Shown here: piece by piece, positions 25,201 to 44,939 of the stretch
Layout: every line of letters begins with the position of its first letter
Position numbering within the stretch: the stretch's first letter is position 1
Virus record (IMG/VR): IMGVR_UViG_3300024433_000608
Coordinates: 1 to 51,527 of that record
Length of the DNA stretch: 51,527 bases
Source of the DNA: a virus
Direction: 5' to 3' (one strand)
Translations under genes and position numbers: made by a program
The notes under the pieces: model-generated
The model's database searches: none
Seen by the model: the letters and a program-made list of their open reading frames with translations, nothing else
Told to the model about the DNA's origin: nothing

Positions 25201-28200
25201 AAAGACTCTGAAAGATGGGCAGCAATACAAGTAGCTGCTATAGAAGAAGTAGAAGCTTTAACAGCAAAAAGAAAAGCAGAAGCAGAACAAAGAGCACAAA
25301 AACGTATTAATGAAAGTGAATTAGAAGATACTACTAAAGATAATAGTGGAGTAGATGGTCCTTCAGTAAACATAGCAGAAACCCAAAAAGATACTTCTAC
25401 TGAAGATGATGCTAATAATGGACTAACTTTTCTTGATGAATTGTCTTCTGAAAACCCTGGAGGAACTCTGGGATTACAAGTAACTGATGAGACTATTATA
25501 CTTATTACCCATGACAAAGAATTTAAAGAAGGGCTAAAAGAAAAGAAAAGTACAGTTATTGATGAAACAACTGGAAAACCTAAAGAAAATCCTTTTAAAG
25601 AAAAAGATGAACCTAGATTAGATTCTGATTTATTAAACAATCCTAATTTTTTACCCGCAAGAGAAACTAATGAAGAAGATGTTGAGGTTACTATTAGCAG
25701 TTTAAATAATGATTGGAATAATAAAGAAAAAAATCAAACAGCAGAGTTAATGGCTTTTGGAGTTTTTAAAGATGGAGTGTATTTAGGAATGCTTCCTGAA
25801 TTTAAACCACAAATGCCTGAGCACTTTTTAGCTTTAAGAAAAGCAGCTTTTGCCGCCCATAAAAAAAATAAAGCTATTAAACATACTCTTGTTGAAAAAA
25901 TAAATACTAGAGTTAATAATGCTAGAGTGGCAACTATTAATCCTCCTTCTAATGTAGCAATTACTCCTCCAGCTGGAGCTCCTATTAAAAATTCTCCTGT
26001 AGATGTTATAGAGCAAGCCAAACAAGAAGGCGCTACTTTTGTTACTAAAGATGGAAAAGAAATAGAATTAGATTTATGGTTAATTTCTAAAATATCAGAT
26101 AACGGAGCAGGAGTAATAAAAGATAATAATTTACCTAAAGAAGTAAAAGATGCTATTAAAGATTTAAATCCTGATAGACTTACAACAGGTATGGTATATA
26201 TGTTAGTACCTCATCCTAAAGGACTTTTTCCAATTAGATTATTTTCAAATACTTTTCAAGATAGTGACGAAGCTTTTAAAAGACATCTTAATGAATCTTT
26301 AAAAGAATTAAAAAACGCTGCAATAGAAAAGAAAATAGAAGAGTTTAATAAAGTAAAAGCAAGATTAGAAGGTTATTTTCATAAAATAAGTTTTAACTAT
26401 GATCCAAATATAGGGTATCTTATTAGTTCTCAGAATCCTGTTACTACTAATAAATGGGGAGGAAATATATTACCAAATTCTAGTAGTAGTAAACCTATAG
26501 ATGTATTTAAAGCTTTAAAAGATGAAATTTTAAAAGTCGGTTTTAAAGCAATGAATAAAAGCAATAATAATGCTAAATATTCTAAGAACGGTTTTATAAG
26601 TACTGATGTTTTTTCACAGAATGGTAACTTCTTTCATTCTTCAGGATTTGTTTTAGATTCTTATTCTGAACCAGAAGCAATAGAGCTTGTAGATAAAGTT
26701 GAAAATGCTGTTCAAGTAGAACAACAAATAGATGCTAATAACACTATTTCTGCTAAAAATAAAATAATAAATGATGTACCTACACCAAGAAAAGAATCAG
26801 TTTTAACTGAAAAACAGGCTAAGGATGTAGAAGCTGGTAAAAAAGTTAGTGCAGCTGCCATAAAAAAAGTTCAGGAAAAAGCCTTAAAAGGTGAAGACGA
26901 GCTTACAAGTGCTGAAGAAAAAGTTTTAAAAGATAATCCTATTGAAGAATTTGAAATTTCAAAAGAAGAAATTTTAAGCAGTGAGCCAACAGCAGAACAA
27001 ACTAGTGAGGTTAAAAGAAAAAAACGTAAAAAAGGTAAATCAATAATTCCTCTTACTGACACTAATAATGCTGACTCTAGTACTTTAAGAGAAAGAAGTT
27101 TAGGAAAAGTAGATGGTACTAAATTTAATGAACAAGAAGAAGTAGCATGGTTAAAAGATAAACTAGGAAAACAAGTAGTAGAAAATACTACAATGTTTAA
27201 TTCTATAGAAGACTTACAAAAATATCTTCCTGAAGAAGTATATAGCATGTTATTAAATGCTCGTAAGAACGGTAGAAACCTTCACGGGCTTTTCTCAACA
27301 GCTGCTCTATATCTTAATAGAAATGCTTTTGAAGGCACTGCTTATCACGAGGCTTTCCACATAGTATTTCATTTAGCTTTACCAGTAGAACAAAGATTAG
27401 CTCTTATAAAAGAAGCTAGAGAAAAGTATAAAGATGAGTTAGAAGAAAATGCTTCAGAAATTCAAGTAGAAGAAGTATTAGCTGACAAGTTTATGGAATA
27501 TGTACAATCTAAAGAAGCTAGTAAAAAAGGACTGCCTTCTAAGATTAAAGATTTCTTTAAAAGAATGTACAGAATGATTAAGACTTTCTTTAACGGAGAG
27601 TCTAATGTTTCTATAAATGAAGTTTTTGAAAATATTCAATTAGGATTATATAAAAATAAACCTAAATTCCAAAATACTAACTTAACTCAATTAGCAACAG
27701 GTAGTTTTAGAACTGCTCTAAGAGAAGAGACTTATGACAATGTTAATGAGGAGCAACAAGCATTAAACTATTTAAGAAACCGGTATTTTAAATTAGTAGA
27801 TCAGTTAAAAAAGACTACTCATAAAAAGAAAAAAACTAAAGATTTACGAACTCGTGCAGAAGTAATTGCTCAAGTAGGAGAAACTTATTTAGATAATTTA
27901 TTATTAAATGATGTACTAAATAATATAGATAATTGGAACGATGAAGGAAATGAAAATCTAATTAAGTTAGGAGAAAATTTAGAAAGAGTATTACTTAATA
28001 ATTCTTTTGAAGATAATTATTCAGAAACAACTAAAGATTTAAAACCTAAAGAAAGTGCTAAATTATCAAAAGAAGAAGTAGAAGACCTTACTTTAGAAGG
28101 CGGTTTTGATTTTTCTTTTGGAAAAGGATTACCAGAATTTATGAGAAAGTTTCATAGATACTTAGCACTTGACGGTCTTAAATTCCAAGATAATAGAATT

Positions 28201-31200
28201 ACTACTACTATAGATACTTACGAAACAGATCAAATAAGTAATGAAGACGAAGAATCTACTCAGGAAGAAAATTGGTTTAAATCTCATATAGAAATTAACC
28301 CTGAAGATTCTGCAAGTCAAGAACTTAGATACTTTTTAAATTCTATTCCAAAGTATGATTCTACTAGAAAAGATGCTAAAATTGTTTATGATGCTTTTGG
28401 GGAAGAGATAAGAGAAGATAGTTCTAAAGTATTTAAATATTTAGCAGAAAAAATAACTAATACTACTGAAGGTCCTGACCAAATGATGGATAAATTAGAA
28501 GCTTTAAAAAATTCTAAACCTTATATTAGACCTATTATAGAAAAACTAAATGACCCTAAGAATGCAGGCATTAAGTCTGACATGTATATATACTTAGCAT
28601 CTAAACAATATATTAAATTCTTAACAGTATTAGAAGATAATGGAGTTTTTAAAAGTTTTTATTCTAATAGAAAAAGTACTGACTATTTGATAGCTGAAGA
28701 ATTAGTAAGTAATTTTTTAAATGAAAAAAATAAATTATTTCAAGATAAAAAAGTAGGAACACGTAAACAAAAAGATTTTGAAAAAATTAATATAACAGAA
28801 GCTAAAAAATTTAAAACAAGTATAAAACAAATTTTAGATAAAGTTAGTGGCCTAAAAAGTGGAAAAAAAGAAGAAGACTTATTTACTAAAAAATTTAGTA
28901 ACAATAAAACTTTTATAGAAAATATAGCTCTTGAACTAAGCGGTAATAAAAAGCAAGGTAATTATGGATTTAATTTAACAGCTGAAGATTTACAAAAATT
29001 ATATGTTAGTTATGATAATGAAAGTGCTATAACTAATTTTAGAAGATTTCTTGAAAAAATTGATAAAGTAGCTGACCAATTAGTTGCTGGAAATAATCCA
29101 TTTTTACTTTTAAAAGCTCAGGATGAAGTAGATAAGACTACTGTAAGTAGTTCAGTAGTAGAAAGATTAGCAGAAGATTATAAAAGAATATTTGCAGGAG
29201 AAGTACAGTCTTCTTCTAGAAACGTAGATAATAAAACAGTTTACAATGTTCAACTAGCTAACTTTTTAAGTAGGACTGTTGCTAAGTGGAAAGACGGTAA
29301 TCTAAGAACAGATTTTATGACTTTTGTGTCAGAAGATCCTTTATTAAATAAATCTCCATTATTAAAAGATTTACAAAATAATCCTGATTTAGTAGATCAA
29401 ATGGAAGTAGTACTATTAGATGGATTAAAAAGAGAAGGTAAAAGTACAGGTACTAAATATACAAGATTATCTCCTATTGAATACGAAGCTACCGCAATGG
29501 CAGCATTTAGATATGCAGGTTCTACATATGGTTATTATAAAATGCCTATTCCTGCAGATGCTCCTACTATGCCTTTTATCAAACTTGAAAAATATTCTGA
29601 AGAAGAAGTTATTGATAGACTAACTGATGTTGCAGAAGGTGAATATTATAGAATAAATAAATTAAGAAATTTACCTACAAATTCTAAGTTAAGAAATATA
29701 AAAAATTATGTAAAAAATGGTACAAAGTTTTCTTTACTAACATTTTTAAATGATGAGGTTAATACTAGTAAGCCTTTTAATAAAACTGCTGTGAGAGAAA
29801 GTATAAAAACTTTTTTAAACGATAAAACTGATAATGGATATTTAGGTTCACAATTAAAAGCTTTAAAAGATAAAAAAGTTATAGAAAATTATGATTTAAA
29901 AACAGGTAAAATAGTTTTTAGTGAAGGTGTTATAGATAGTAGAGAAACAAATAAATTAGAATTTATCAAAAGTTACCTATTTAATAGTCTTTATGTAAAT
30001 ACTCAAATGACTTCTTTATTGGCTACAGACCCTGCATTTTATAGTGGTACTGTTGATTATCAAAAAAGATATAAACAAGTTATAGGTCCTAAACTTTATT
30101 TAGACCCTAGTAAAGTTCGCCCTAATTATTATATTAAGGCTATGAAGGATGAAAAACTTCCTTCTAAAAAAGAAACTGCTGAAGCTGTCCAAGAACTTCT
30201 TAAAAATTCTTCTTTATCTAAACAAGAGCAAAAAGAAATAACAGCAATATGGAGTTTTACAGAGGATGTTCATAATACTACTGATGCTCAAACATATTTA
30301 CACCCTAGAAGATATAAAGAAGTAATGGAAGGGCTTAACAGATGGTCTGACGAAATGGAAGCTGGTTATAAAAGAATACTTGCTGGTAAAGATATTGCTG
30401 AAGACATTGCTTTATTTCCTCCTATAAAACCTTTCATGTTTACCCAAAATAAAATAGAAGGAACTGTTGTAGGTATGCAAGTAAAAAATTCAGAAGCAAT
30501 GTTAACTCCTTCTTTAGCATTACAAAAAGATGGAAAAGGACAATTTAAATATCCTGATTTAGCAAAAGTATATCAGACTTTAAATACTGCTACAACACTA
30601 AAAGATGGTACTAAAATACCTGGTATAGATGCTTTAGTTTTTGAATCTGCTATTAAAAATGGATTAGAAGGTATAGCACCTGCTGATAAAGATGGTAAAC
30701 CTGTACTAGCTACTATAGATAATATAGGAGAAGCTCCGATAATTTCTTTAAAAAATTCTGATTGGGGATTACAACAAGAAACACCTGCTCACTATTTAGA
30801 TGACTTAAATAATTATGGTACTCAGTTCCGTAACTTAATTATTGCTGATTTAAATATGGAAGGAATTTACATTATTGAAGGTAAAGAATATACTGGTAAA
30901 GAAGTAGCTGAATTATATCAAGATACTATTATTACAGATTTAGAACAATCTTATGAAAAAGTAGAAAAGTTATTTTTAGATAAAAATGGCGATGTAAATT
31001 ATGCTGCTATTTTAGATAAATTACAATCAGAAATAGATAGAAGAGATTTAGGAGATGACGCTAGAGCTGCTTTAGATTATTATGTCAAAGAAAATCCTGC
31101 AGGATTAAAACAATTACGTCCAACATTACCTTTGTATCATCCTGTCCATACTATTATGATACAAAATATTCTTAATGGAATATTTAATAAATCTATTACT

Positions 31201-34200
31201 AAACAAACTACATCAGGAGGAGCAGTTGTAAATACTTCTTCATACGGTATTTCAGATAGTTTAAATTTTGATCCTAAAACAGGAACATATGAAGTATTAA
31301 TGCCTTGGACTTCTAAAAAATATTTTCCAAAAGATGCAAATGGAAATATAGATTTATCAAAACTTCCTGACGAAATTAAAGAATTAGTAGGATATCGTAT
31401 TCCTACAGAGGATAAATATTCTATGTTTAAGATGAAGATTGTAGGATTTACTCCTGCAAGTATGGGAGGCACTTTAATATTACCTAGAGAAGCTACTACT
31501 ATAGCAGGTCTGGATTTTGATATTGATAAACTTTATATAATAACTCCTGCTTTTAAAGTTAAAAAGAACGGAAATATAATATATAAAAAACCTATTAATA
31601 AAAATACTCCTACAGCAGAGGCAGCTTTACAAATATTTGAAGATACTGCAATATTAGAAAGATTTTTAAATGATAAATTTGATGCAGAAGAAGTAAGTAA
31701 AATATTAGAATTTAAAAATAAAATTAATGAAGACATAGTTAAAAATAAACAAGGTCTTAAAAAAGAAAACGCAGCTTTATATGCAGAAATACAATCAGTT
31801 AAAAAATTAAAAAGTCTTGCTACAGATGAAAGTTCTAAAATAGCTCAACAAATTAAATTAGATGAGCTCTATGAACAAATGGCTGAAAATAAAATTGATT
31901 ATGATAGTGCTTTAGAAGAACAATATAATAAGTCTCCATATAAAGAAATATTAGAAAAAGCTGTAGCAGATGCAGACAATATAGAACAGTACAATGGTAA
32001 AGCTGAAAGAGATAATTTAAAATTAGAAATAATAAAAGGTATATTAAGTAATCCTCATACTTTAGAAAGCATATTACCTGGTGGTAGTTTTGAGCAACAA
32101 GAATTACTTAGCGCTAAAATAAGATTATTAAAAGCTGGAGAAGTAAAAAAAGCTAATAGCCTAAAAGGAAAAGCTCTTAAAGATGCTGCTAATAGTTTAG
32201 ATGATGCTAGTATTTTTAATATTTTATATCCTAGTACTCAATTAGAATTATTTGAAAGAAATATGACAGGTAGAGAACTTACTGGAATAATAGCTAATCA
32301 AAACTCTCATCATGCTAAAGCATTATTTACTAATATGAAGCTAAAAGTTCCTGTAAAAGTTGTTCTTAAAAATGGAGCAGTAGCAGAATACGATGCTCTT
32401 AATGAGTCTAAAGTTAATGAACAAAGAGTTTCTAAAAACTTATCTTCATTACTAGCAGCTGTTGTGGATAATGCTAAAGTGCCACTATCTTCTTTCTTAA
32501 ACTTTAACAGTTTTACAGCTGATACTGTTTCTTTAATGACTAGACTAGGTATAGATGAAGAAGTAATTTTCTATTTAATGAATCAACCTATTATTATCCA
32601 ATTAAGTAAAACTCATTTTGCAGAAAAAGGAAATTTATCAGAAGAAAATCTTTTTAAAAATATTGTTAAAGAGTGGAGAATGAAATTAAAAGAAAAAGGA
32701 ATAGAATCTAAAGGCATTCCTTATGAGCTTGATAAAACTGCACTAGAAGATTCTCTTATTAAAGAAAATCAAAATACTGATGATTATTATACTACTCAAT
32801 ATCAAGCACTTTTAATGTTTAGTAACCTTAAAACTAAAGCAGAAGAATTAGCATTATCTGTACAAGCTTCTAGAATGGATACTAAAGGATTAGGAGCAAC
32901 AGTCGCAGAAGGATTTGTTTTCTTAGATAAGCAAAGAAGATTATTAGAACTAGTAAGAAAAAATGAAAATAGTATATTAGGAATTACTGAAACATTCGAT
33001 GGTACAAGTGATCAAAGAATGATGGCTAAATTTAATGAGTTAGGTATTCAAAAACCATTATCTTTAATGGATAGAATACTTCCTTATAGTGGTAAATTTA
33101 ATGAAGAAACAGGGCAATTTGAGCTTAATTTATTAGGACAGGTTAAAGCTTATATATCTGACCAAAAAGGTAAAACTATGGGAATAACGGAAAAAGAAGC
33201 AAGGTTAATAGAATCTCAGTATATGGGATATATAGCTTCTAAATTTCCTTTCTTTAATAATAGTGAAGGAGAAAGAATCGTTAGAGATACTCCAGAAAAA
33301 CTAAGACAATATAAATTAAATAATCCTAAATCTAAATATTCTGTATTATTAGACGCTATTTATGTTAAAGATTCTACAAAAAAGTTTCCATTACCAACTA
33401 TTCAATATTATAAAACAGGTAAAAAACCTATCGTAGAGGAGCAAATAAAAAAGACTTTTCAAAAAATGTTAGAATTAGGAACTAAAGAAGAAAAAGATTT
33501 AGCATTTGATTTAATTAAATATGCTTATCACACTACTGCTTTTGAATACACTCCTTTAAGTTATTTACAAATAGTGCCTACTGTATTCTGGACAGATGAT
33601 TTTGCTAGAAAAGAAACAAACAAAGAAAGAGGGCTTACAGATGCTAAAGGAAGAACTTTTAATGAAGTTTTAGAAGATGCTGATAATTATATTAGAAATA
33701 CTAAATTATTTGAAAACACTAATCCTACTATACAACCTAATACTACTCCTATAAGATATCAAGAAGAAGGTGGAGGATTATTAGCAAATCATTTTATACA
33801 TCAATTTATTCAAAATAACTTTGAAAGAGAAGGATTTGTAAAAAGTGTTCCTAGAAAAGCAATAGGAATTAGTCATAATGGGGCAACAAATACTATCACG
33901 ATAAGCAAGCTAGCATCTCTTCCTTATTATTCTTATAGTGATGGTATCATGTATTATATAAAAAGGTATAATAAACTTAAAAAGAAGATGGAATTATTTT
34001 CTTTTTATACAAAAGTTGAAGATAGTTTTGTATATAAAAAAGTAGATGGTTTAGGTGCTACTAACTTTTTAAAAGTTTATAATGCTGGACAAGAGGCCAA
34101 AGGATGGTTACAAAAAGTTACTCCTGCTACTGCCGCTAAAAAGGGTCCTGAAGGAGATATAGAAGCTCAAATAGCAAAAGAAATAGAAAAACAAGCTGCA

Positions 34201-36147
34201 GCTGAAGCTGCTGCAAATGGTTTAATAGTAGATAGCCAAAACGATATTGAAGGTCAATCAATTAATTTTGAAACTTTAAAAGCTTCTTTAGCTACCCCAG
34301 AAACAACAACACCTACAACAACACAACCAGTTACTAAAATTATATCTGGAGCACAAACTGGTGTAGATCAGATTGGCTTAGAAGTTGGAAAAGGATTAGG
34401 AATGAAAACTGGTGGAACAGCTCCTATAGGATTTCAAACTGAAAAAGGGAAAGATAAATCCTTAGCAGAAAAATATGGTATAAAAGAAATTACTGCAGAA
34501 GAACAAAATAAGTATGCAACAGGTAAAACCGATGCTTATACTGCTAGAACAGAAATGAATACTTTAAATTCAGATGGAACAGTTTATTTTGCTACCAATG
34601 CAGATAGTGCAGGAAAAATTGCTACAGAAAGATATGCTAAAAAACATAGTAAGCCTTTTATTCTAAACCCTACAGCGGAACAATTAAGAAAATTCTTAGC
34701 TGATAATAATATTAAAACTCTTAATGTCGCAGGTAATAGAGGTAGTAAACTTACTACTCAGCAAAAAACAAATATTAAGAAAATTCTTACTACTGCATTA
34801 AAAGCTCCAACACAACCAGCTGCAACAATTAGTGAAAGTTTCGAAAAATTCAAAGGAGAAGGATTTGACCTTGCTCCAAATGATACAATAAAGAATAACA
34901 TAAATATATTCTTCCCTTCTTATTCTAGAAAAGGAATAAAAACTAAATCAACACATAGAGGACTTATTTCTTATAAAAATGGTAAATTTTACAACGCAGG
35001 TAAAGAAATAGAACTTACAAAAGAAGAATTAGAATATCTAAAAAGAGTAGTAGACTTCCGAGTTAAGCTTGAAGATTATGTAATAGGTAAACTAGAAAAA
35101 CATCCAGATATAAACATTGAGGAATTTAAATCAGATTCTTTCAATAAGTGGGCATCAAGTTTACTTAAGATTCTAGATAATGAGTTTAGAAAAGCAAAAA
35201 AAGCAAATCCTAAAGGAACAAAACAAGAATGGGCTACTAGTTGGTTAATAAAATTAGGTTTTACTCAGAATGAAGCAAACACACTTCTTTCAGAAATTGG
35301 ACCAACTCCAAACCTCTTTAATACCACAGAAATAGCCTTCTTAAATTCTTATAGACTTGATTCAGATAACTTATTAGATAAATCAGAATTAGATGGAAAA
35401 GAAGCTAAAGCTCCTTTTGAGGCCGTTGATCAAATACTAGAATCAATATCAACAACACAACCAGCTGGTAAGGTTAGCATTAATACTACAAGATGGACTA
35501 AGGATTCACCAAAAGAAAACCCTAGTACAGCTTATGTATTTACAGAAAATATAAATTCTATAGGAAGTACTAGAGTTGGAGGCGGATCAGCCGTTATTAG
35601 AAATAATCCTAACGCTATTGGTATAGTAACTAAAAAGTATTACACTTATAAAGAAAACAGGAACTCTAGTAATAAAGAACAGTGGAATGCTAATTTCCAA
35701 GATACAGATGCTGATTTTGAATTGTTTAAAAAAGTTAATCTAGAACAGTTTGCTAAATTGGATAAATTTGACTCTAAGATATTTCCAGATGGTTTTGCTA
35801 ATTCTTTAGCGTCTGTACCTAATAAATTTGCATTATGGCTTCAAAATGAATTGCAAACTAGATATGGTTTAGTTACTGAAGTAAACAGCAAAGGGACAGG
35901 ATTAATTTCTAAATCTGTACAGCAAGCTACTCAACCAGTTGCTGAAGAAACTTCTACAGCTGAAGTTAAAAAAGAAGGAGGATTTAATCTTGATGCTTTA
36001 AAAGCTATGACAAGTGAGAGTCGTAATAGTCTACCTTATACAACTAAAACAAAGAGTGGAAAAACTATAGCAGATGCTGGTATTTCACTAGAAGCTTGGG
36101 TACAGATGAGTGTAGAAGAACAAAACAAACATATAGAATGTAACTAA
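22252..36147 (+). CDS. Giant virion RNA polymerase polyprotein (4,631 aa) with zincin-like, SLOG and other domains
   Basis: One uninterrupted 13.9-kb ORF. Residues about 130-330 hold Gly/Ala-rich hydrophobic stretches. A metalloprotease motif H1699EAFH1703 with E1741VLAD downstream gives a gluzincin-like pattern. The RNA polymerase core is marked by R3049IPTED and the metal-binding D3088-F-D-I-D3092 in GLDFDIDKLYII, the signature of the crAss-like, QDE-1-related single-chain polymerase (phi14:2 gp66 type). Residues about 4030-4180 (IISGAQTGVDQIGLEVG, RTEMN, SDGTVYFA) are a SLOG/cpYpsA-like (formerly molybdenum-carrier) domain. Residues about 4408-4555 (AYVFTENINSIGS, FPDGFANSLA) are another domain seen in phage polyvalent proteins. 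The protein is expected to be packaged, enter the cell and transcribe early genes. It is about twice the length of phi14:2 gp66. A cleavage step is possible but no site is evident. Confidence 0.9.
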   Translation: MAKKNNSSEDTTPENLDPTTSLPQSTLNRLKDANRMTNYLVQNPNGVGPIMQGKLAPDYNIQKLRDLSYDLNDQVEGGEYQDEKVFKPFKSLSEIDTRRDLAYQSRLAELGFKENTLAYEQELDDNQAWYEEIANAQTKFMGKLFNYTTTGLAGIVYGLGKAATTMDAGAIIDNEVFRAMDDMDDWLNKRFVIHGGADYRQAQERGEWFGNRFLINPLKTVGDDITDAAAFVGSAILTETAAGLATAASGGFGSGALAANTMKVGITGARLWNRFAGGVKVLRGLDVASDIAKSAKVIQQVDKYKRIAGTARGIMTGAGMESAMIGRDTQDQTLEQLLADHKKQYGRPPTASERARYENTAENAGLNAYLLNLPLVAGSNMLQFPKIFLKGYGSSRKVMKGLELAGGKWGPKYDKLSRAGKIGYWGKKSLGTGITEGFEEFAQGAIEDGLIDYYGSNYSPLATKEGVGYLDAMSTAAYKYAGTTEGIDSMTIGFLMGMIGMPMPTNFKTGKKTKLGKIAGAFEWHGGAFGEIKEARREIKEVRKAAEKLNNTDAGTALQESYQNFVRNIQIENDKDEAIASGDIFEYKNKEHDSLFSYTMSRFNIGLEDTIFQELDALEKMSTEDFNKNYGIKGLEEWDDNSKRETLTKARQKITDILEVTTNTQTIMDSKFGNVKPEDAPMYRGLRDQLIYTAAAVQNANSREQELNRQITDRSWEGINTSRLDEATFKLDKKSAKEGYVEFKEEYDKIMDEEMDNWKKNNPATYSINNQLVKDLYQDLKKLKIRRNSAAELFEFLMTPKGTKLFNEFDAKVKEKQAELLKEYTEQKTKENLEKAQNQKEVNRVKKDAESNGTVNAVNEVKESEANKISDQIDKKRTAEEQAIAELEAELMDEMVPPEGAPVGDLKDLASQKEDNKDPNDALKSMVDTAATDRSIKGQEAIDYIVAENAKVLLNSILETVGVNYDISDINSVADLGSAAIAMKDSERWAAIQVAAIEEVEALTAKRKAEAEQRAQKRINESELEDTTKDNSGVDGPSVNIAETQKDTSTEDDANNGLTFLDELSSENPGGTLGLQVTDETIILITHDKEFKEGLKEKKSTVIDETTGKPKENPFKEKDEPRLDSDLLNNPNFLPARETNEEDVEVTISSLNNDWNNKEKNQTAELMAFGVFKDGVYLGMLPEFKPQMPEHFLALRKAAFAAHKKNKAIKHTLVEKINTRVNNARVATINPPSNVAITPPAGAPIKNSPVDVIEQAKQEGATFVTKDGKEIELDLWLISKISDNGAGVIKDNNLPKEVKDAIKDLNPDRLTTGMVYMLVPHPKGLFPIRLFSNTFQDSDEAFKRHLNESLKELKNAAIEKKIEEFNKVKARLEGYFHKISFNYDPNIGYLISSQNPVTTNKWGGNILPNSSSSKPIDVFKALKDEILKVGFKAMNKSNNNAKYSKNGFISTDVFSQNGNFFHSSGFVLDSYSEPEAIELVDKVENAVQVEQQIDANNTISAKNKIINDVPTPRKESVLTEKQAKDVEAGKKVSAAAIKKVQEKALKGEDELTSAEEKVLKDNPIEEFEISKEEILSSEPTAEQTSEVKRKKRKKGKSIIPLTDTNNADSSTLRERSLGKVDGTKFNEQEEVAWLKDKLGKQVVENTTMFNSIEDLQKYLPEEVYSMLLNARKNGRNLHGLFSTAALYLNRNAFEGTAYHEAFHIVFHLALPVEQRLALIKEAREKYKDELEENASEIQVEEVLADKFMEYVQSKEASKKGLPSKIKDFFKRMYRMIKTFFNGESNVSINEVFENIQLGLYKNKPKFQNTNLTQLATGSFRTALREETYDNVNEEQQALNYLRNRYFKLVDQLKKTTHKKKKTKDLRTRAEVIAQVGETYLDNLLLNDVLNNIDNWNDEGNENLIKLGENLERVLLNNSFEDNYSETTKDLKPKESAKLSKEEVEDLTLEGGFDFSFGKGLPEFMRKFHRYLALDGLKFQDNRITTTIDTYETDQISNEDEESTQEENWFKSHIEINPEDSASQELRYFLNSIPKYDSTRKDAKIVYDAFGEEIREDSSKVFKYLAEKITNTTEGPDQMMDKLEALKNSKPYIRPIIEKLNDPKNAGIKSDMYIYLASKQYIKFLTVLEDNGVFKSFYSNRKSTDYLIAEELVSNFLNEKNKLFQDKKVGTRKQKDFEKINITEAKKFKTSIKQILDKVSGLKSGKKEEDLFTKKFSNNKTFIENIALELSGNKKQGNYGFNLTAEDLQKLYVSYDNESAITNFRRFLEKIDKVADQLVAGNNPFLLLKAQDEVDKTTVSSSVVERLAEDYKRIFAGEVQSSSRNVDNKTVYNVQLANFLSRTVAKWKDGNLRTDFMTFVSEDPLLNKSPLLKDLQNNPDLVDQMEVVLLDGLKREGKSTGTKYTRLSPIEYEATAMAAFRYAGSTYGYYKMPIPADAPTMPFIKLEKYSEEEVIDRLTDVAEGEYYRINKLRNLPTNSKLRNIKNYVKNGTKFSLLTFLNDEVNTSKPFNKTAVRESIKTFLNDKTDNGYLGSQLKALKDKKVIENYDLKTGKIVFSEGVIDSRETNKLEFIKSYLFNSLYVNTQMTSLLATDPAFYSGTVDYQKRYKQVIGPKLYLDPSKVRPNYYIKAMKDEKLPSKKETAEAVQELLKNSSLSKQEQKEITAIWSFTEDVHNTTDAQTYLHPRRYKEVMEGLNRWSDEMEAGYKRILAGKDIAEDIALFPPIKPFMFTQNKIEGTVVGMQVKNSEAMLTPSLALQKDGKGQFKYPDLAKVYQTLNTATTLKDGTKIPGIDALVFESAIKNGLEGIAPADKDGKPVLATIDNIGEAPIISLKNSDWGLQQETPAHYLDDLNNYGTQFRNLIIADLNMEGIYIIEGKEYTGKEVAELYQDTIITDLEQSYEKVEKLFLDKNGDVNYAAILDKLQSEIDRRDLGDDARAALDYYVKENPAGLKQLRPTLPLYHPVHTIMIQNILNGIFNKSITKQTTSGGAVVNTSSYGISDSLNFDPKTGTYEVLMPWTSKKYFPKDANGNIDLSKLPDEIKELVGYRIPTEDKYSMFKMKIVGFTPASMGGTLILPREATTIAGLDFDIDKLYIITPAFKVKKNGNIIYKKPINKNTPTAEAALQIFEDTAILERFLNDKFDAEEVSKILEFKNKINEDIVKNKQGLKKENAALYAEIQSVKKLKSLATDESSKIAQQIKLDELYEQMAENKIDYDSALEEQYNKSPYKEILEKAVADADNIEQYNGKAERDNLKLEIIKGILSNPHTLESILPGGSFEQQELLSAKIRLLKAGEVKKANSLKGKALKDAANSLDDASIFNILYPSTQLELFERNMTGRELTGIIANQNSHHAKALFTNMKLKVPVKVVLKNGAVAEYDALNESKVNEQRVSKNLSSLLAAVVDNAKVPLSSFLNFNSFTADTVSLMTRLGIDEEVIFYLMNQPIIIQLSKTHFAEKGNLSEENLFKNIVKEWRMKLKEKGIESKGIPYELDKTALEDSLIKENQNTDDYYTTQYQALLMFSNLKTKAEELALSVQASRMDTKGLGATVAEGFVFLDKQRRLLELVRKNENSILGITETFDGTSDQRMMAKFNELGIQKPLSLMDRILPYSGKFNEETGQFELNLLGQVKAYISDQKGKTMGITEKEARLIESQYMGYIASKFPFFNNSEGERIVRDTPEKLRQYKLNNPKSKYSVLLDAIYVKDSTKKFPLPTIQYYKTGKKPIVEEQIKKTFQKMLELGTKEEKDLAFDLIKYAYHTTAFEYTPLSYLQIVPTVFWTDDFARKETNKERGLTDAKGRTFNEVLEDADNYIRNTKLFENTNPTIQPNTTPIRYQEEGGGLLANHFIHQFIQNNFEREGFVKSVPRKAIGISHNGATNTITISKLASLPYYSYSDGIMYYIKRYNKLKKKMELFSFYTKVEDSFVYKKVDGLGATNFLKVYNAGQEAKGWLQKVTPATAAKKGPEGDIEAQIAKEIEKQAAAEAAANGLIVDSQNDIEGQSINFETLKASLATPETTTPTTTQPVTKIISGAQTGVDQIGLEVGKGLGMKTGGTAPIGFQTEKGKDKSLAEKYGIKEITAEEQNKYATGKTDAYTARTEMNTLNSDGTVYFATNADSAGKIATERYAKKHSKPFILNPTAEQLRKFLADNNIKTLNVAGNRGSKLTTQQKTNIKKILTTALKAPTQPAATISESFEKFKGEGFDLAPNDTIKNNINIFFPSYSRKGIKTKSTHRGLISYKNGKFYNAGKEIELTKEELEYLKRVVDFRVKLEDYVIGKLEKHPDINIEEFKSDSFNKWASSLLKILDNEFRKAKKANPKGTKQEWATSWLIKLGFTQNEANTLLSEIGPTPNLFNTTEIAFLNSYRLDSDNLLDKSELDGKEAKAPFEAVDQILESISTTQPAGKVSINTTRWTKDSPKENPSTAYVFTENINSIGSTRVGGGSAVIRNNPNAIGIVTKKYYTYKENRNSSNKEQWNANFQDTDADFELFKKVNLEQFAKLDKFDSKIFPDGFANSLASVPNKFALWLQNELQTRYGLVTEVNSKGTGLISKSVQQATQPVAEETSTAEVKKEGGFNLDALKAMTSESRNSLPYTTKTKSGKTIADAGISLEAWVQMSVEEQNKHIECN

Positions 36148-40100: not shown

Positions 40101-41077
40101 AAGGTAAAGACTCTAAAAAAATAGATGAAAAATGGAAAACTTTAAGAGATAAAAGTTTATACAATGCTTTTGAAGTTAAAAATGATAAATTAGAATTAAA
40201 GTCTGAATTTACTGAAATAGTTACTAATGAATTAATGAATGTAGTTAAGAATAGAATAGTTACTATTAATCATATAGTAGATGGTACAGTTGCTAAAGAA
40301 GATAAAGGAGCTCTCTCTAGAACTATTTTAGGAGATTTTGTATTAATGCATAGAGGCTGGTTTCTTTCTGGTATAGATAATAGACTTAAAGCAGATGGAA
40401 TAAATTATAATACAGAAGAACACGAAATAGGTTATTATAGAGCCGCAGGAAGTTTTATTAAAAAGATTATTAGTGATGAAACTATGGGATTAAAAGTAAA
40501 ATTTATTCCTGAAATATGGAAAAATTTATCTCCTGCAGAAAGAAGAGGTTGTAAAAAAACTCTTTTAGATATAGTATGGATGCAAGGATTAGCAGTACTA
40601 GGAGCAATGATACAATTAGCAGCTGATGACGATAAAGATAATATGAGCCTTCAATACATAGCATATACTATGAATAGAGTAAATCTTGAAATGCAAGCAT
40701 TAATGTTTCCAGCAGAAACTTTAGATATTATGGAAGAGCCTGTAGTAGGAGCAAGAGTTATTAAAGAATTGGCTAATATAACTGAAATATTTAATTTTAA
40801 TGAAACATATGAACGAGGTATGTACAAAGGAAAAACTCATGCAGGAAGATGGTGGAACAGAAGAATGCCTTGGAAAAATTTATATGAATTACAATTTCCT
40901 GAACAAAAAAATAGATTTATAAAATCTATATTAAATTCTGGAACATATAATATATTTAAAGGAGACGGGTTTTTTGGAGAAGAAGGATTCTTTTCTGGTA
41001 TAAGCAATATATTTAGTGCAAATGCCGATGAACGTAGAGCATACAGTGAAGAAGAAGTAGAAAACTTTTTGGAATAG
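37154..41077 (+). CDS. Cargo protein 4, main part: PD-(D/E)XK nuclease domain plus crAss-like C-terminal region
   Basis: A 1,307-residue ORF counted from the TTG codon at 37154. The same frame is open back to 36944 with protein-like sequence and no ATG, so the true N-terminus lies in the frameshifted upstream ORF. Residues about 85-215 carry a PD-(D/E)XK nuclease core: GIAGTVD153, IYD167-M-K169 and a downstream HQEQLSTYRLLL helix, as in RecB/Cas4-like phage nucleases. A Lys/Glu coiled coil follows (about 285-330). The C-terminal 450 residues (NNLALNFVTSLTGFIKGS, VDGTVAKEDKGALSRT, LMHRGWFLSG) match the conserved end of the crAss-like cargo protein next to the RNA polymerase. It is probably packaged and delivered; the nuclease may attack host DNA or process phage DNA. 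It ends in TAG. Confidence 0.8.
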   Translation: MSNDPLYQVESLEKQEVADKVNEIIQNADFIKPSNSLGRIVENPSDATHYVNILTGKVYERVSNFIRDKKIDKNDLLDTSNLLGNKADEFIRDFFNDSLKELSEYGLSSNEALEKFVRQLDVLKTKMKNNGETVLSNDIVLYNDELGIAGTVDLLTYDEKGMFRIYDMKTMRGNQLKSSYAGDSVSKYDTTKFGKSKRQSHQEQLSTYRLLLNNTHGVKASELYIIPIVLPQYAAGDTQVESLDLQPNIRVSILDKVKTAELDNSKTLGEFEHEPANITIDDTEENVNEKLRFLKNAVSALRSKRNKLKKGSKTKDELAKARKELAELEKKIALGEINAAITGILNIAISDMQGIQGNIIKTRKGEMGLSSYIVRRNQEFIELYNDIASTLLSELNLWIPSKFNAKIQTDIETFRAQLQQLGDVNLALIRRATVEYLDAGNRDIYGNVLDPNFDPKSIVKDTEKDAGWWRLITGSYGNSDSNILKIAMKMIKKTINSVKSFTISTGRTLINLEDDFKKAGFTNEDLVDRSNDGKLGAYLVSEYSNQKFQEALEKTRDEIAAKLEYDTFEEINKMSLSKVNQQYYSRTIAKFYAENSKQVSAEKVVNGKTITISEIVPSDKYLDTTFAKNMQNQTFARYYNALLDTKRKALAKQPAANNNRTALYLLPQIRRTFIERLTNKNNSFLTNMAEIARESVLIDKDDTQFGDLENVNSKSVPIFFNSRLDKDADISYNLASTYTHYAEMAENFKQMNEIAADMENLLTSIGKRQYLQKGIKTKQVPGVQSKEFRAVQDMLDNLVYGKERAALETKEISENAATKFLGIAGKRLSWTKVSQKFTSYIRTNNLALNFVTSLTGFIKGSVDSKIEDQIGLYTTNESKWWARNEFKYNFSKIVSNIGKARQSSKMHLILEQNDVVDITKTMTDSDKNRAARLLLDKDILFTNYRLADYFMKGNVTLAVYDNYRLVGNKFITKQHFKDLKENKGKDSKKIDEKWKTLRDKSLYNAFEVKNDKLELKSEFTEIVTNELMNVVKNRIVTINHIVDGTVAKEDKGALSRTILGDFVLMHRGWFLSGIDNRLKADGINYNTEEHEIGYYRAAGSFIKKIISDETMGLKVKFIPEIWKNLSPAERRGCKKTLLDIVWMQGLAVLGAMIQLAADDDKDNMSLQYIAYTMNRVNLEMQALMFPAETLDIMEEPVVGARVIKELANITEIFNFNETYERGMYKGKTHAGRWWNRRMPWKNLYELQFPEQKNRFIKSILNSGTYNIFKGDGFFGEEGFFSGISNIFSANADERRAYSEEEVENFLE

Positions 41078-41208
41078 AAAAATGAGCAAACGCCAAATTT
41101 TTTTTCAAAGCTTTACACGGTTCAATTTTGAAAAGCCATTACTCGTAAAGAATATGTTACTATTCAGAGTATGAAGGATTAAAGCTCCTAAGAATTAGTG
41201 TAAAAAAC

Positions 41209-41237
41209 AAAAGGGCAACTGTAATGGTTGCCCTTTT
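41209..41237. terminator. Bidirectional intrinsic terminator at the convergent junction
   Basis: An 11-bp perfect stem AAAAGGGCAAC / GTTGCCCTTTT with a 7-base loop. The A-run on one side and the T-run on the other make it work in both directions. It lies between the end of the virion operon (41077) and the end of the early minus-strand operon (41314), where a two-way terminator is expected. Confidence 0.85.
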
Positions 41238-41241
41238 AAGT

Positions 41242-41310
41242 GGTAGATCACGATTACGGTCCTCACCGCCTTAGTACAAAATTTATCAAATAAAAACTAA
41301 GAAATCTACC
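41242..41310. other. Structured intergenic element, three-way-junction fold possible
   Basis: Sixty-nine bases closed by a perfect 7-bp stem (GGTAGAT at 41242-41248, ATCTACC at 41304-41310). Inside are a short CGGT/ACCG hairpin with a 4-base loop and a 6-bp CTTAGT/ACTAAG hairpin (41270-41275 with 41296-41301). It lies between the terminator and the end of the minus-strand gene at 41314. The size is tRNA-like but the T-loop, D-loop and U8 are missing on both strands. It may be a small RNA, a 3' stabilising structure or a tRNA relic. Confidence 0.35.
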
Positions 41311-41313
41311 TAG

Positions 41314-41823
41314 TTATTTTTCACCGTCATTTATAGTCTTATAAAATTCAGGACTAATTTCTCTAATTTTCTTATTGTTTTCTCTTTTTAATCGTTGAAC
41401 ATATGCTATTTCTTCTTTAGTACTATCAGTACCTAAGTTAGTCATTATTACTGCATTCATATGAAGCAGTACATCTATTTTAAATTTTGTTAATTTATTC
41501 ATTTTATAAAATATTATTTCAGTTTTAGATAATTCTTCAAATTTGTATACTGGTAATTCACCAATATCCATTTCTTTTGTTTCTTTATAATAATACGGAG
41601 GATTGCTAGAAAATATAGTAACTATTTTATTTTGCTCTCGAGCTCTTTCAATTTCTTTAGGAAACTGAAACATAATTTCTACATAAACTTCTCTAGCAAA
41701 TGTTTCATCAAGTTCTAACATTTCTATAATCTCTTTTAAAGGCTTATTAGCTAACATAGCCTCTTTAAAAGTATTTTTTCTTCTGTAAGTTAAACTTGTT
41801 TTACCAGTGAATGATGTCTCCAT
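41314..41823 (-). CDS. Hypothetical early protein, last gene of the minus-strand operon
   Basis: A 169-residue charged, mostly helical protein with no recognised family. Residues 20-60 resemble a helix-turn-helix-like arrangement (NKPLKEIIEMLELDETFAREV), and a proline/tyrosine stretch SSNPPYYYKE lies near 74. It has no signal or membrane segments. Its start lies 23 bases inside the UDG-like gene, so the two are probably translationally coupled. It is the last gene before the bidirectional terminator. A DNA-binding or regulatory role is possible, but I do not recognise it. Confidence 0.65.
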   Translation of the reverse strand: METSFTGKTSLTYRRKNTFKEAMLANKPLKEIIEMLELDETFAREVYVEIMFQFPKEIERAREQNKIVTIFSSNPPYYYKETKEMDIGELPVYKFEELSKTEIIFYKMNKLTKFKIDVLLHMNAVIMTNLGTDSTKEEIAYVQRLKRENNKKIREISPEFYKTINDGEK

Positions 41824-42677: not shown

Positions 42678-43538
42678 TTAAAATATGTATCTAATTTTAT
42701 TCCAAGGAATTATTTTATTATGTAACTCCTTAAATTGATTAATATATTGTCTTTTTAGAGGTATCTTATATCTTAAGTTTTTACCTCCGTATTGAGAAGT
42801 TTTATGTTCCTGAATCTCAGGAGTCCATAAATCATCTTCAGCTTTAGGATTATATACTAAATTATAATCATGACGTTTTTGATTATGAGTAAGAAATATA
42901 CATTCAGCTAATACGCCTTTTTTATATTCTACATAATCGTTCATCATATGAAATATAAATTCATAATCCTTTAGCCATCCATCATATACTATGATAGGAC
43001 TGTAGTTAACATGTACATCATATCCTGCTTCTATAAAAGCATTGATCGCTTTTATTCTATCTATAATTTTAGTAGTACCAGGCTCATGTATAGATGACAT
43101 ATGCTGTGGCATAAGACTAAATCTAATACGAACTTTACCTTTAGGATCAAAGTCTAATAATTTAGGATTTACATATTTTGTAGCAAACGTAGCCATAGCT
43201 ACAGGGTGCTCTACAAAAAATTCGAATATCCTTTGCCAATCATAATACTTAGCATGAAGAGCAAAGTCTTCGTTACAGCTAATATCGTATGTCATATATG
43301 TACTATGTGTCTGATTAGGTTTCTTTACATTAGCATAAAAATATGCATGCTCATTAACCTCTGTAAGTATGTCTCCAATGTTTTTTGCCACATCTAAGCC
43401 TTCAGGCTTATGACGCTTCATATAACAGTAAGAGCAATTGTATAAACAACCATAGCCAAAGCTAGGAGTAATGTAATCACTACTTCTAAGAGACTCTCTA
43501 ATTGTAAAGGTTTTTCTAATAACTTTATTTAGTTTCAT
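42678..43538 (-). CDS. Radical SAM protein, spore photoproduct lyase-like
   Basis: A 286-residue protein with the CxxxCxxC iron-sulfur motif of radical SAM enzymes at C31, C35 and C38 (GCLYNCSYCYMKRHKP). CxxxCxYCY followed by a small barrel, with RIRFSLMPQ and DVHVNYSPIIVYDGW strands, is the layout of the spore photoproduct lyase (SplB)-like family, which uses a SAM-derived radical to reverse thymine dimers. Phages of Bacteroidota often carry such genes. Repair of UV damage is therefore likely but not proven; another nucleic-acid modification is possible. Its ATG overlaps the stop of the upstream 63-residue gene by 4 bases, and the UDG-like repair gene lies downstream. Confidence 0.8.
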   Translation of the reverse strand: MKLNKVIRKTFTIRESLRSSDYITPSFGYGCLYNCSYCYMKRHKPEGLDVAKNIGDILTEVNEHAYFYANVKKPNQTHSTYMTYDISCNEDFALHAKYYDWQRIFEFFVEHPVAMATFATKYVNPKLLDFDPKGKVRIRFSLMPQHMSSIHEPGTTKIIDRIKAINAFIEAGYDVHVNYSPIIVYDGWLKDYEFIFHMMNDYVEYKKGVLAECIFLTHNQKRHDYNLVYNPKAEDDLWTPEIQEHKTSQYGGKNLRYKIPLKRQYINQFKELHNKIIPWNKIRYIF

Positions 43539-43729: not shown

Positions 43730-44020
43730 TTAATCTATTAAACCAACAGGTACTATAATAGCATTACCTACTATATATTCTCTGCCAGATAGCCCAGTGG
43801 CTATATCATTATGAAGAAAGTTTCTTAACCGGCCTTCTTCGTTAACCACAATATCATATTTTCCACATCTAGATTTTAGAATTTCTATATAACCTCCTAC
43901 TGCTTTCTGCATAGAGCCTAAATCTAAATCATTTGTGAAAGGAGTAATAGTAGCTACTACTTCTTTGTTTACTTCATCAACTGTAACTAATACAGGTGAT
44001 TCTAAATTTTGTATTTCCAT
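43730..44020 (-). CDS. DUF3846-like protein
   Basis: A 96-residue protein with the DUF3846 pattern: AVGGYIEIL, then VNEEGRLRNFLHNDIATGL (Asn-Glu-Glu-Gly and an Asn/Ala motif), then YIVGNAIIVP. The family is widespread in mobile elements and phages and its biochemical role is not known. It starts at an ATG 32 bases from the inverted repeat at 44052-44080, which lies in its leader. It is the first gene of the leftward cluster DUF3846 - 63-aa protein - radical SAM - FlbD-like - UDG-like. Confidence 0.7.
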   Translation of the reverse strand: MEIQNLESPVLVTVDEVNKEVVATITPFTNDLDLGSMQKAVGGYIEILKSRCGKYDIVVNEEGRLRNFLHNDIATGLSGREYIVGNAIIVPVGLID

Positions 44021-44051
44021 AACATTTAGTTTATAATTAATTAATAACAGA

Positions 44052-44080
44052 ATACTATTTTCGTAGTATGAAAATAGTAT
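44052..44080. promoter_or_regulatory. 11-bp inverted repeat over the start of the small lipoprotein gene
   Basis: ATACTATTTTC (44052-44062) and GAAAATAGTAT (44070-44080) pair perfectly around the loop GTAGTAT. The ATG at 44068-44070 of the plus-strand lipoprotein lies at the loop/stem border, and a T-rich run follows. It could hide the start codon, act as a weak terminator, or, in the other direction, shape the DUF3846 leader. Confidence 0.5.
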
Positions 44081-44223
44081 ATTTTTTTATTTTATTATTA
44101 TGTTCTTCTTGTGCAGTAAAAGAGCCTATTCAGTGGGATTTAGACTATTCTAATTACCAAAGTTCTATTGATACTACTTCTAATTATGTAGAAGATATAA
44201 AAGAGTTTTTTATTGAAGAATAA
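44068..44223 (+). CDS. Small lipoprotein (51 aa) on the strand opposite to its neighbours
   Basis: A short ORF: MKIVYFFILLLCSSC, then AVKEPIQWDLDYSNYQSSID, then a Thr/Ser- and acid-rich end finishing FFIEE and TAA. It has a one-Lys n-region, a hydrophobic core and a lipobox-like LCSSC with Cys15 as the lipid site, so a mature outer-membrane or cell-surface lipoprotein of about 37 residues is expected. In phages such proteins are often superinfection-exclusion or receptor-masking factors; this is inference. It is alone on the plus strand within the minus-strand early region, which suggests separate control. The inverted repeat at 44052-44080 covers its start codon. The main doubt is its length. 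Confidence 0.55.
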   Translation: MKIVYFFILLLCSSCAVKEPIQWDLDYSNYQSSIDTTSNYVEDIKEFFIEE

Positions 44224-44224
44224 A

Positions 44225-44283
44225 TAATGCAGCCAGAACCCTAATATGGCTTGTCGACTTAGCTTGTTAATCTGACTGCATTA
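44225..44283. other. Structured intergenic element closed by an 8-bp stem
   Basis: TAATGCAG (44225-44232) and CTGCATTA (44276-44283) pair perfectly and enclose 43 bases. Inside, CCA/TGG pairing and a TTAG/CTGA hairpin are possible, the latter with a G-T pair that favours the plus strand and a loop containing TTGTTAA. It starts one base after the lipoprotein stop. At 59 bases it is too short for a tRNA. It has no coding potential. Confidence 0.35.
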
Positions 44284-44288
44284 AATAA

Positions 44289-44376
44289 TTTGTGTATAGA
44301 GGCTATAACTCTATCCATATAAGTCTTCTCGAGGTACTTACGACCTTGCTATGAGTTTCACATTTAGGCACACAAA
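44289..44376. other. Structured intergenic element closed by a 7-bp stem, with two internal hairpins
   Basis: TTTGTGT (44289-44295) and ACACAAA (44370-44376) close an 88-base segment. Within it are a perfect 6-bp hairpin ATAGAG/CTCTAT (44296-44314) and a 6-bp hairpin CGAGGT/ACCTTG (44330-44348) whose G-T wobble favours the plus strand. The size recalls a class II tRNA, but there is no acceptable anticodon arm, GG in a D-loop or TTC T-loop. It lies just beyond the stop of the minus-strand gene at 44379. Together with the previous element it fills the gap between the convergent genes. Confidence 0.35.
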
Positions 44377-44378
44377 GT

Positions 44379-44939
44379 CTAACAACTACACCAACCTATA
44401 AATCCCCACTTACCTTTTCTTTCAGTAGTAGAAGGTTTATAAGTTACATCCGCACATAATACATCTTCTCCAACAAGTCTTTTACCTATTTGAATTTTAA
44501 TGCTTACATCAGGATTCTTTTCTACATAAGCTCTTGCCTTAGCAATAGCGTCTGCTTGTTTAGTTTCCATAATCTGAACATCTTGAATACCTCCGTATCC
44601 ATTTGCTACTCCTACATAAACAGTTTCCCATTTACGAGTTCCTTTATTAGGAAAACTATTAACTTGCGTTTTTATTTTATTAGTATTAGGTTTAGGAGCT
44701 ACTATTTCATAAGCAAATGAGGTTCCTTTATAATAGGTTCCATTATTTTCTTGCTTTTCCATATACTGCTCTAACTCTTTTTCAGATTTAAAAATCTTAC
44801 GAGTATCTAATTCATTATTACCCTGATGTCCAGCATAATAATCATGACCATGTTCTTCTAATAATACTTCTTTAAGTCTATCAAAAGCTTGTCCGACAGT
44901 TCTTCCTGTCATTGTGTTGTATTCTTTAACTCCACCCAT
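44379..44939 (-). CDS. Hypothetical early protein
   Basis: A 186-residue soluble protein of unknown family. The N-terminal half has AFDRLKEVLLEEHGHDYYAGH with a His/Tyr-rich turn, and the middle is beta-rich (WETVYVGVANGYGGIQDVQI). A helix (QADAIAKARAYVEKNPD) then leads into strands (VSIKIQIGKRLVGE) and an end GKWGFIGWCSC. It stops in TAG, rarer than TAA here. It lies 12 bases after the 77-residue gene and ends beside the structured element at 44289-44376. No function can be given. Confidence 0.65.
   Translation of the reverse strand: MGGVKEYNTMTGRTVGQAFDRLKEVLLEEHGHDYYAGHQGNNELDTRKIFKSEKELEQYMEKQENNGTYYKGTSFAYEIVAPKPNTNKIKTQVNSFPNKGTRKWETVYVGVANGYGGIQDVQIMETKQADAIAKARAYVEKNPDVSIKIQIGKRLVGEDVLCADVTYKPSTTERKGKWGFIGWCSC

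Follow-up and report, generated by a model that had tools for sequence, protein, structure and literature searches.

Two short elements of a virus genome, here called e1 and e2, recur in diverged phages with their folds conserved and have been transferred among these phages at the level of the module. They lie side by side in the window (the whole stretch of DNA that was analysed, a 51.5-kb virus record), and the folds of both favour the minus strand. Our best explanation, to which we give about an even chance, is that they represent two families of small structured phage RNA without relation to each other, exchanged as modules and acting as homodimers.

Late-type genes occupy the plus strand of the window up to 41077, and early-type genes, with exonuclease VIII-like, rIIA- and rIIB-like members, run on the minus strand from 41314. 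A gap between two minus-strand genes (44021-44378) contains both elements: e1 at 44225-44283 (minus), with a 13-bp closing helix that has U-G at pair 9, a fixed core and a P2 hairpin; and e2 at 44289-44376 (minus), a four-arm, or cloverleaf, RNA. The spacer between them is 5 bases long (44284-44288). A sequence-only reading of the window had described here a 59-base element closed by 8 bp and, 5 bases away, an 88-base element closed by 7 bp, and both were confirmed at these positions. The same gap holds a plus-strand ORF of 51 aa (44068-44223), antisense to the early operon, which has a lipoprotein-type signal (LLLCSSCA) and stops one base short of e1; among the other records, denoted below by L numbers, it is absent from L006 and L011, and its start is seen in L093 as far as the contig end. 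An 11-bp hairpin (ATACTATTTTC/GAAAATAGTAT) with a T-rich run behind it (44052-44080) overlaps the start of this ORF. Elsewhere, the early region encodes a spore photoproduct lyase-like radical SAM protein (42678-43538, minus; Pfam PF20903), and a single ORF of 4631 aa spans 22252-36147 on the plus strand.

Copies of e2 in L022 and L059, like the e1 copy in L007, were found by exact-word scans of viral contigs. On the 52.9-kb contig L022, e2 is identical to that of the window at 88 of 88 positions, the 7.1 kb compared being otherwise dissimilar at both the nucleotide and the translated level; the copy in L059 is roughly 75% identical, again without other nucleotide similarity to the window in the stretch compared. 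Folded in isolation and without constraints, the minus strand of e2 has one and the same cloverleaf as its best structure in the window, L006 and L059. With more of the surroundings included, the cloverleaf is best in L022 only, and flanking sequence competes for the closing stem in the other three. The closing stem P1 (minus) joins 44370-44376 as 5' strand to 44289-44295 as 3' strand; all its cells are paired, and two of its pairs are changed on both sides in L059. Arm 1, in the D-arm position (44343-44369, minus), consists of an outer 4-bp stem and an inner 5-bp hairpin that covaries. Arm 2, in the anticodon-arm position (44319-44341, minus), has 6 bp and an 11-base loop, with two pairs changed on both sides; one arm-2 pair is lost in L006. 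Arm 3, in the T-arm position (44296-44314, minus), has the loop TTATAGC, abuts P1 directly and is invariant in all copies. Across the e2 alignment (A4), which holds three distinct sequences only, pairing is kept in 95.4% of 87 cells, and both sides have changed in 5 of 29 pairs, a result matched in 2 of 500 shuffles; if the partners are slid against each other, both the pairing and the double changes are lost. Two more compensations visible by eye in arm 1, if the gap in L022/L006 is shifted by three columns, were left uncounted. A model built on e2 (R1) finds it once each in five of the eight records searched (the window, L022, L059, L006 and L011), not in that of L007, nor in those of L093 and L094, which end before this place. 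Its specificity was gauged on 87 loci (806 kb), which gave two matches (E 0.24 and 0.41).

This architecture raises the alternative, applicable to e2 only, that the element is a tRNA mimic, which host tRNA-processing enzymes would excise and which would function as an adaptor or as a decoy, for instance of a defence enzyme that cleaves tRNA. Like tRNA (RF00005), e2 has four arms, with the invariant, T-like arm 3 (loop TTnnAnC) abutting an acceptor-like stem of 7 bp (7-8 bp) without a spacer; the 4-5 bases ahead of arm 3 and the 1-2 bases between arms 1 and 2 also agree. The e1-bearing record L007 has a separate tRNA-like piece (1996-2060, plus) with a standard T arm, an encoded CCA and a D-arm hairpin, but without an anticodon arm, which scores 17.1 bits against RF00005, below the threshold of 29. 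Unlike a tRNA, however, e2 has non-standard D and anticodon arms: the two-base spacer before arm 1 is missing, a hairpin stands in place of the D-loop, and its loops of 10-13 bases contrast with the 7-base loop on a 5-bp stem of a tRNA anticodon arm. CCA is not encoded either, albeit a host enzyme could add it. No tRNA model scores e2: RF00005 has no match at E up to 10 in 44020-44400, and ARAGORN has none at default settings and, when relaxed, makes only scattered calls, mostly intron-bearing and on both strands. The earlier judgement that neither element is an obvious tRNA holds, and no Rfam family is reached at gathering score. We regard the tRNA mimic as unlikely.

Relatives of e1 outside the close kin of the window were found in L007, L104 and L109, in stretches that otherwise share no nucleotide similarity with the window. 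The copies in L104 and L109, which were found by a pattern with the loop bases left free (14 stretches: four known, eight chance and two new), have the core TTAACAAGCTAA, the loop word, AAGCC and then TTAGGGTT within a closing helix of other sequence. Although the helix of L104 differs in sequence, its pairing is kept. L007 has the helix of the window plus one further C-G to U-A exchange, together with a far longer insert in mid-element, and e1 of L006 has ten extra bases. The P2 stem is of 3 bp only and is invariant. In the e1 alignment (A6), again of three distinct sequences only, 47 of 47 cells are paired and 7 of 16 pairs are changed on both sides (1 of 500 shuffles). The corresponding model (R2) matches e1 in the window, L006, L011, L104, L109 and L007, and finds none in the records of L022 or L059; a second match in the window (E 3.2) is at chance level. 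In 82 other loci (742 kb) it gave one match (E 0.085).

The compensatory changes in both families, which bear out the covariation in relatives that the sequence-only reading had proposed to look for, also bear on the simplest alternative, chance stems in AT-rich sequence. Counts alone would favour chance: the claim that such stems exceed expectation was not borne out, with three stems of at least 8 bp in 44020-44400 (2.0 in shuffles) and two in 41070-41330 (1.15 in shuffles). Folding energies were mixed. The two elements together on the plus strand are only partly unusual (z -1.88, with 6 of 200 shuffles as good); e1 alone stands out on either strand (z about -3.4); and e2 alone is ordinary (z -0.75 on plus, -1.2 on minus), so that it would fail on the energy comparison with shuffled sequence proposed earlier. 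We accept e2 because of the comparison with relatives, not because of its single-sequence energy. Chance is highly improbable, and in our view refuted for e1 and e2, given that both families show compensatory changes and recur in unrelated phages.

The strand preference is apparent from the same alignments. G-T pairs had been read as favouring the plus strand, which was contradicted: the wobbles of the covarying folds are G-U on minus and A.C on plus. In every row of A4 and A6 the wobble pairs are G-U on the minus (RNA) strand, where only two A.C cells occur, both in e2 of L059 and one of them arising from gap placement. For e2, alignment folding on minus gave a consensus energy of -17.6 (SCI 0.88, z -4.2, 1 of 1000 shuffled alignments as good), against -13.7 on plus (z -3.0, 5 of 1000); on the pair of window and L059 alone the strands are equal (-16.25 and -16.3). 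The plus-strand reading was dropped on these scores and the wobble tally. Of the two internal 6-bp hairpins noted from the sequence, only ATAGAG/CTCTAT is kept. L006 and L059 no longer pair at CGAGGT/ACCTTG, a stretch that forms different arms on the minus strand. Flanking genes are co-directional with the RNA strand in the window, L022, L059, L104 and L109; beside the 1.5-kb gap of L007 the gene calls are ambiguous, and the larger genes are on the same strand as the RNA. The preservation of G-U pairing on one strand only, which is the coding strand of the neighbours, speaks against a view of the elements as DNA-level mobile units (attC-like or miniature inverted-repeat) whose stems act as folded DNA. 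Such units would fit the way in which the elements end exactly at the closing stem in unrelated surroundings, and the swapping of modules at one site; conserved ends of the attC type are absent, and no recombinase was noticed beside the elements. We consider this reading very improbable.

That the modules move separately from their surroundings is evident from the records that carry them. A search with a neighbouring protein gave three close relatives of the window, one of them essentially the same virus, and one distant relative without the gap; both e1 and e2 are kept in the close relatives. The 1546-aa structural protein and the 836-aa rIIA-like protein of the window have no match in the records of L022, L059 and L007, and the first two of these contain one weak exonuclease match each (24-26% identity). 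One protein of the L059 record and one of the window both match phrog_8510, so a remote kinship of these two phages is possible; for the neighbour protein of L059 no further relative was found. L006 carries an extra stem-closed element of about 139 bases between e1 and e2, which is absent from the window and L011, and one spot holds different stem-closed elements in L104 (1727-1834) and L109 (2675-2805, minus), between flanks that align with 97% identity upstream and 94% downstream. As this swap and the third element of L006 show, stem-closed units come and go whole. At corresponding spots, L104 3144-3219 and L109 1100-1420 (minus) have closing stems that differ yet pair, different insides and an 8-base palindrome each (GCTATAGC, TCTCGAGA). 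The gap at 1100-2560 of L007, about 1.4 kb long, contains several stem-closed stretches, such as 1741-1836, whose closing stem has 10 bp. The PeSL cassettes of T4-type phages, reportedly described by Arbiol in 2010 and Comeau in 2014, are said to be mobile and to consist of an early promoter linked with a terminator hairpin. They resemble e1 and e2 as small intergenic stem-loop units moving between phages; unlike them, e1 and e2 have conserved cores and no promoter found attached. A promoter scan with a sigma-70-type consensus, which may not be the type of this phage, gave hits at shuffle level, none tied to e1 or e2.

The main rival is that the elements act in cis behind stop codons, as processing marks, in 3'-end protection or in termination, without any action in trans. 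The minus-strand gene 44379-44939 ends in TAG, and the 5' end of e2 is 2 bases past this stop; in L059, e2 and the stop of the gene upstream overlap. In L104 and L109 the closing helix of e1 runs into a U-tract, so that e1 could simply be a terminator there. The third element of the sequence-only reading, e4, lies in the other gap (41242-41310, minus), 3 bases past the stop of the minus-strand gene 41314-41823 and just ahead of a terminator-like hairpin (41208-41238, minus) that ends the minus-strand operon. One arm of e4 is compensatory in L011 (CTTAG/CTAAG to TCTAG/CTAGA), but no copy was found beyond the clade of the window, the sole other match of a word scan (in L092) being a chance one within a coding gene. 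In the same gap, the noncoding stretch 41110-41190, closed by AGCTTTA/TAAAGCT and 98% conserved in L006, is possibly another element. Against the cis reading, e2 of L022 is 171 bases past the stop, and a plain hairpin needs neither the fixed core of 20-odd bases in e1 nor the invariant third arm of e2. We hold action purely in cis to be possible but doubtful.

Neither element corresponds to a catalogued RNA. No Rfam match was obtained for e1 or e2, the GOLLD and ROOL models included, and self-cleaving ribozymes, tmRNA and known riboswitches were rejected on the same ground; snoRNA-like matches in L007 were under threshold and disregarded. Searches of known phages with the stretch of both elements (E up to 10) gave nothing beyond scattered, partial hits no longer than 47 bases, searches of plasmids with the L104 stretch gave only pieces of at most 47 bases, and genome scans gave no match to the e1 or e2 word and no bacterial-genome match. 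Pattern matches discarded as chance came to 10 of 14 stretches (these 10 lie within a single conserved coding gene), 49 of 54, 2 of 6, 12 of 16 and 8 of 14. In the literature, searched by titles and abstract beginnings mostly outside subscription journals, no description of e1 or e2 was found. According to one source (PMC12286853), GOLLD and ROOL are structured phage RNAs, often near tRNA genes, that assemble through kissing loops and show covariation between copies. They are like e1 and e2 in being phage-encoded structured RNAs with kissing loops (putative in e1 and e2); in contrast, GOLLD often exceeds 800 bases and both are in Rfam, whereas e1 (59-165 bases) and e2 (88-92 bases) match no Rfam family.

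The proposal that the elements were related phage RNAs stood as regards phage RNAs, their folds being conserved with compensatory changes in other phages, but not as regards mutual relatedness. Apart from stem closure and a self-complementary loop, e1 and e2 have no sequence or fold in common, and each covariance model, run on the window, misses the element of the other family; a motif of about 12/15 bases common to e1, e2 and an L007 element was put down to chance.

The self-complementary loop points to a mechanism. The e1 loop in the window is AA-GTCGAC-A (palindrome at 44253-44258, minus), and in L104 and L109 it is AA-GCCTAGGC-A, with the flanking A's preserved. The arm-2 loop of e2 contains CTCGAG (44328-44333, minus) in the window and L022, CTGCAG in L006 and ACTAGT in L059. 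Thus, in both e1 and e2 the loop stays self-complementary while its word changes. When the letters of the e1 and e2 loops were shuffled, a self-complementary hexamer arose in 2.4-6.7% of cases, and self-pairing as good as that of the real loops in 0.1-4%. The palindrome idea is post hoc, having arisen after looking. Among ten hand-picked elements, with e2 counted three times and e1 twice, six had palindromes (0.64 expected); a second set of ten stretches had two (0.88 expected), one of them inside a 321-base stretch that is not a single element, and a general palindrome rule for stem-closed elements was not borne out by this set. Since the loop word is replaced by another self-complementary word in each family, a kissing homodimer is the most likely mechanism, and e1 and e2 probably self-dimerise through kissing loops. 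In the retroviral dimer initiation site (PMC4588261), a self-complementary word in a hairpin loop starts RNA dimers; its layout of unpaired A's is the same as that around the word in the nine-base e1 loop, albeit with no common descent and with the e1 dimer being putative.

In the explanation that we prefer, two unrelated RNA families exchanged as modules and acting as homodimers, e1 and e2 would be transcribed on the minus strand along with the surrounding early genes. Each module would be self-contained, its closing helix free in sequence as long as pairing is kept around a conserved core, and modules would be gained, lost and passed among diverged phages. Two copies would pair loop to loop as a kissing homodimer, and this dimer would be the active form, either inside the early mRNA or excised from it. 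As a first guess, it would act on a host RNA-binding factor, either as its decoy or as a scaffold for it.

More tentatively, the elements may belong to a modular class of phage RNA genes, in which cassettes with different cores are swapped at fixed intergenic spots behind stops, some of them (e1 and e2) homodimeric and one built on a tRNA-like cloverleaf. e1 and e2 provide two families absent from Rfam, of a size suited to synthesis and with conserved cores, for which a minus-strand transcript, RNA ends at the closing helix and dimer formation are predicted. If the swapping of cassettes is general, phages would possess a pool of small, mobile RNA genes, overlooked by gene-finders and comparable to their tRNA cargo.
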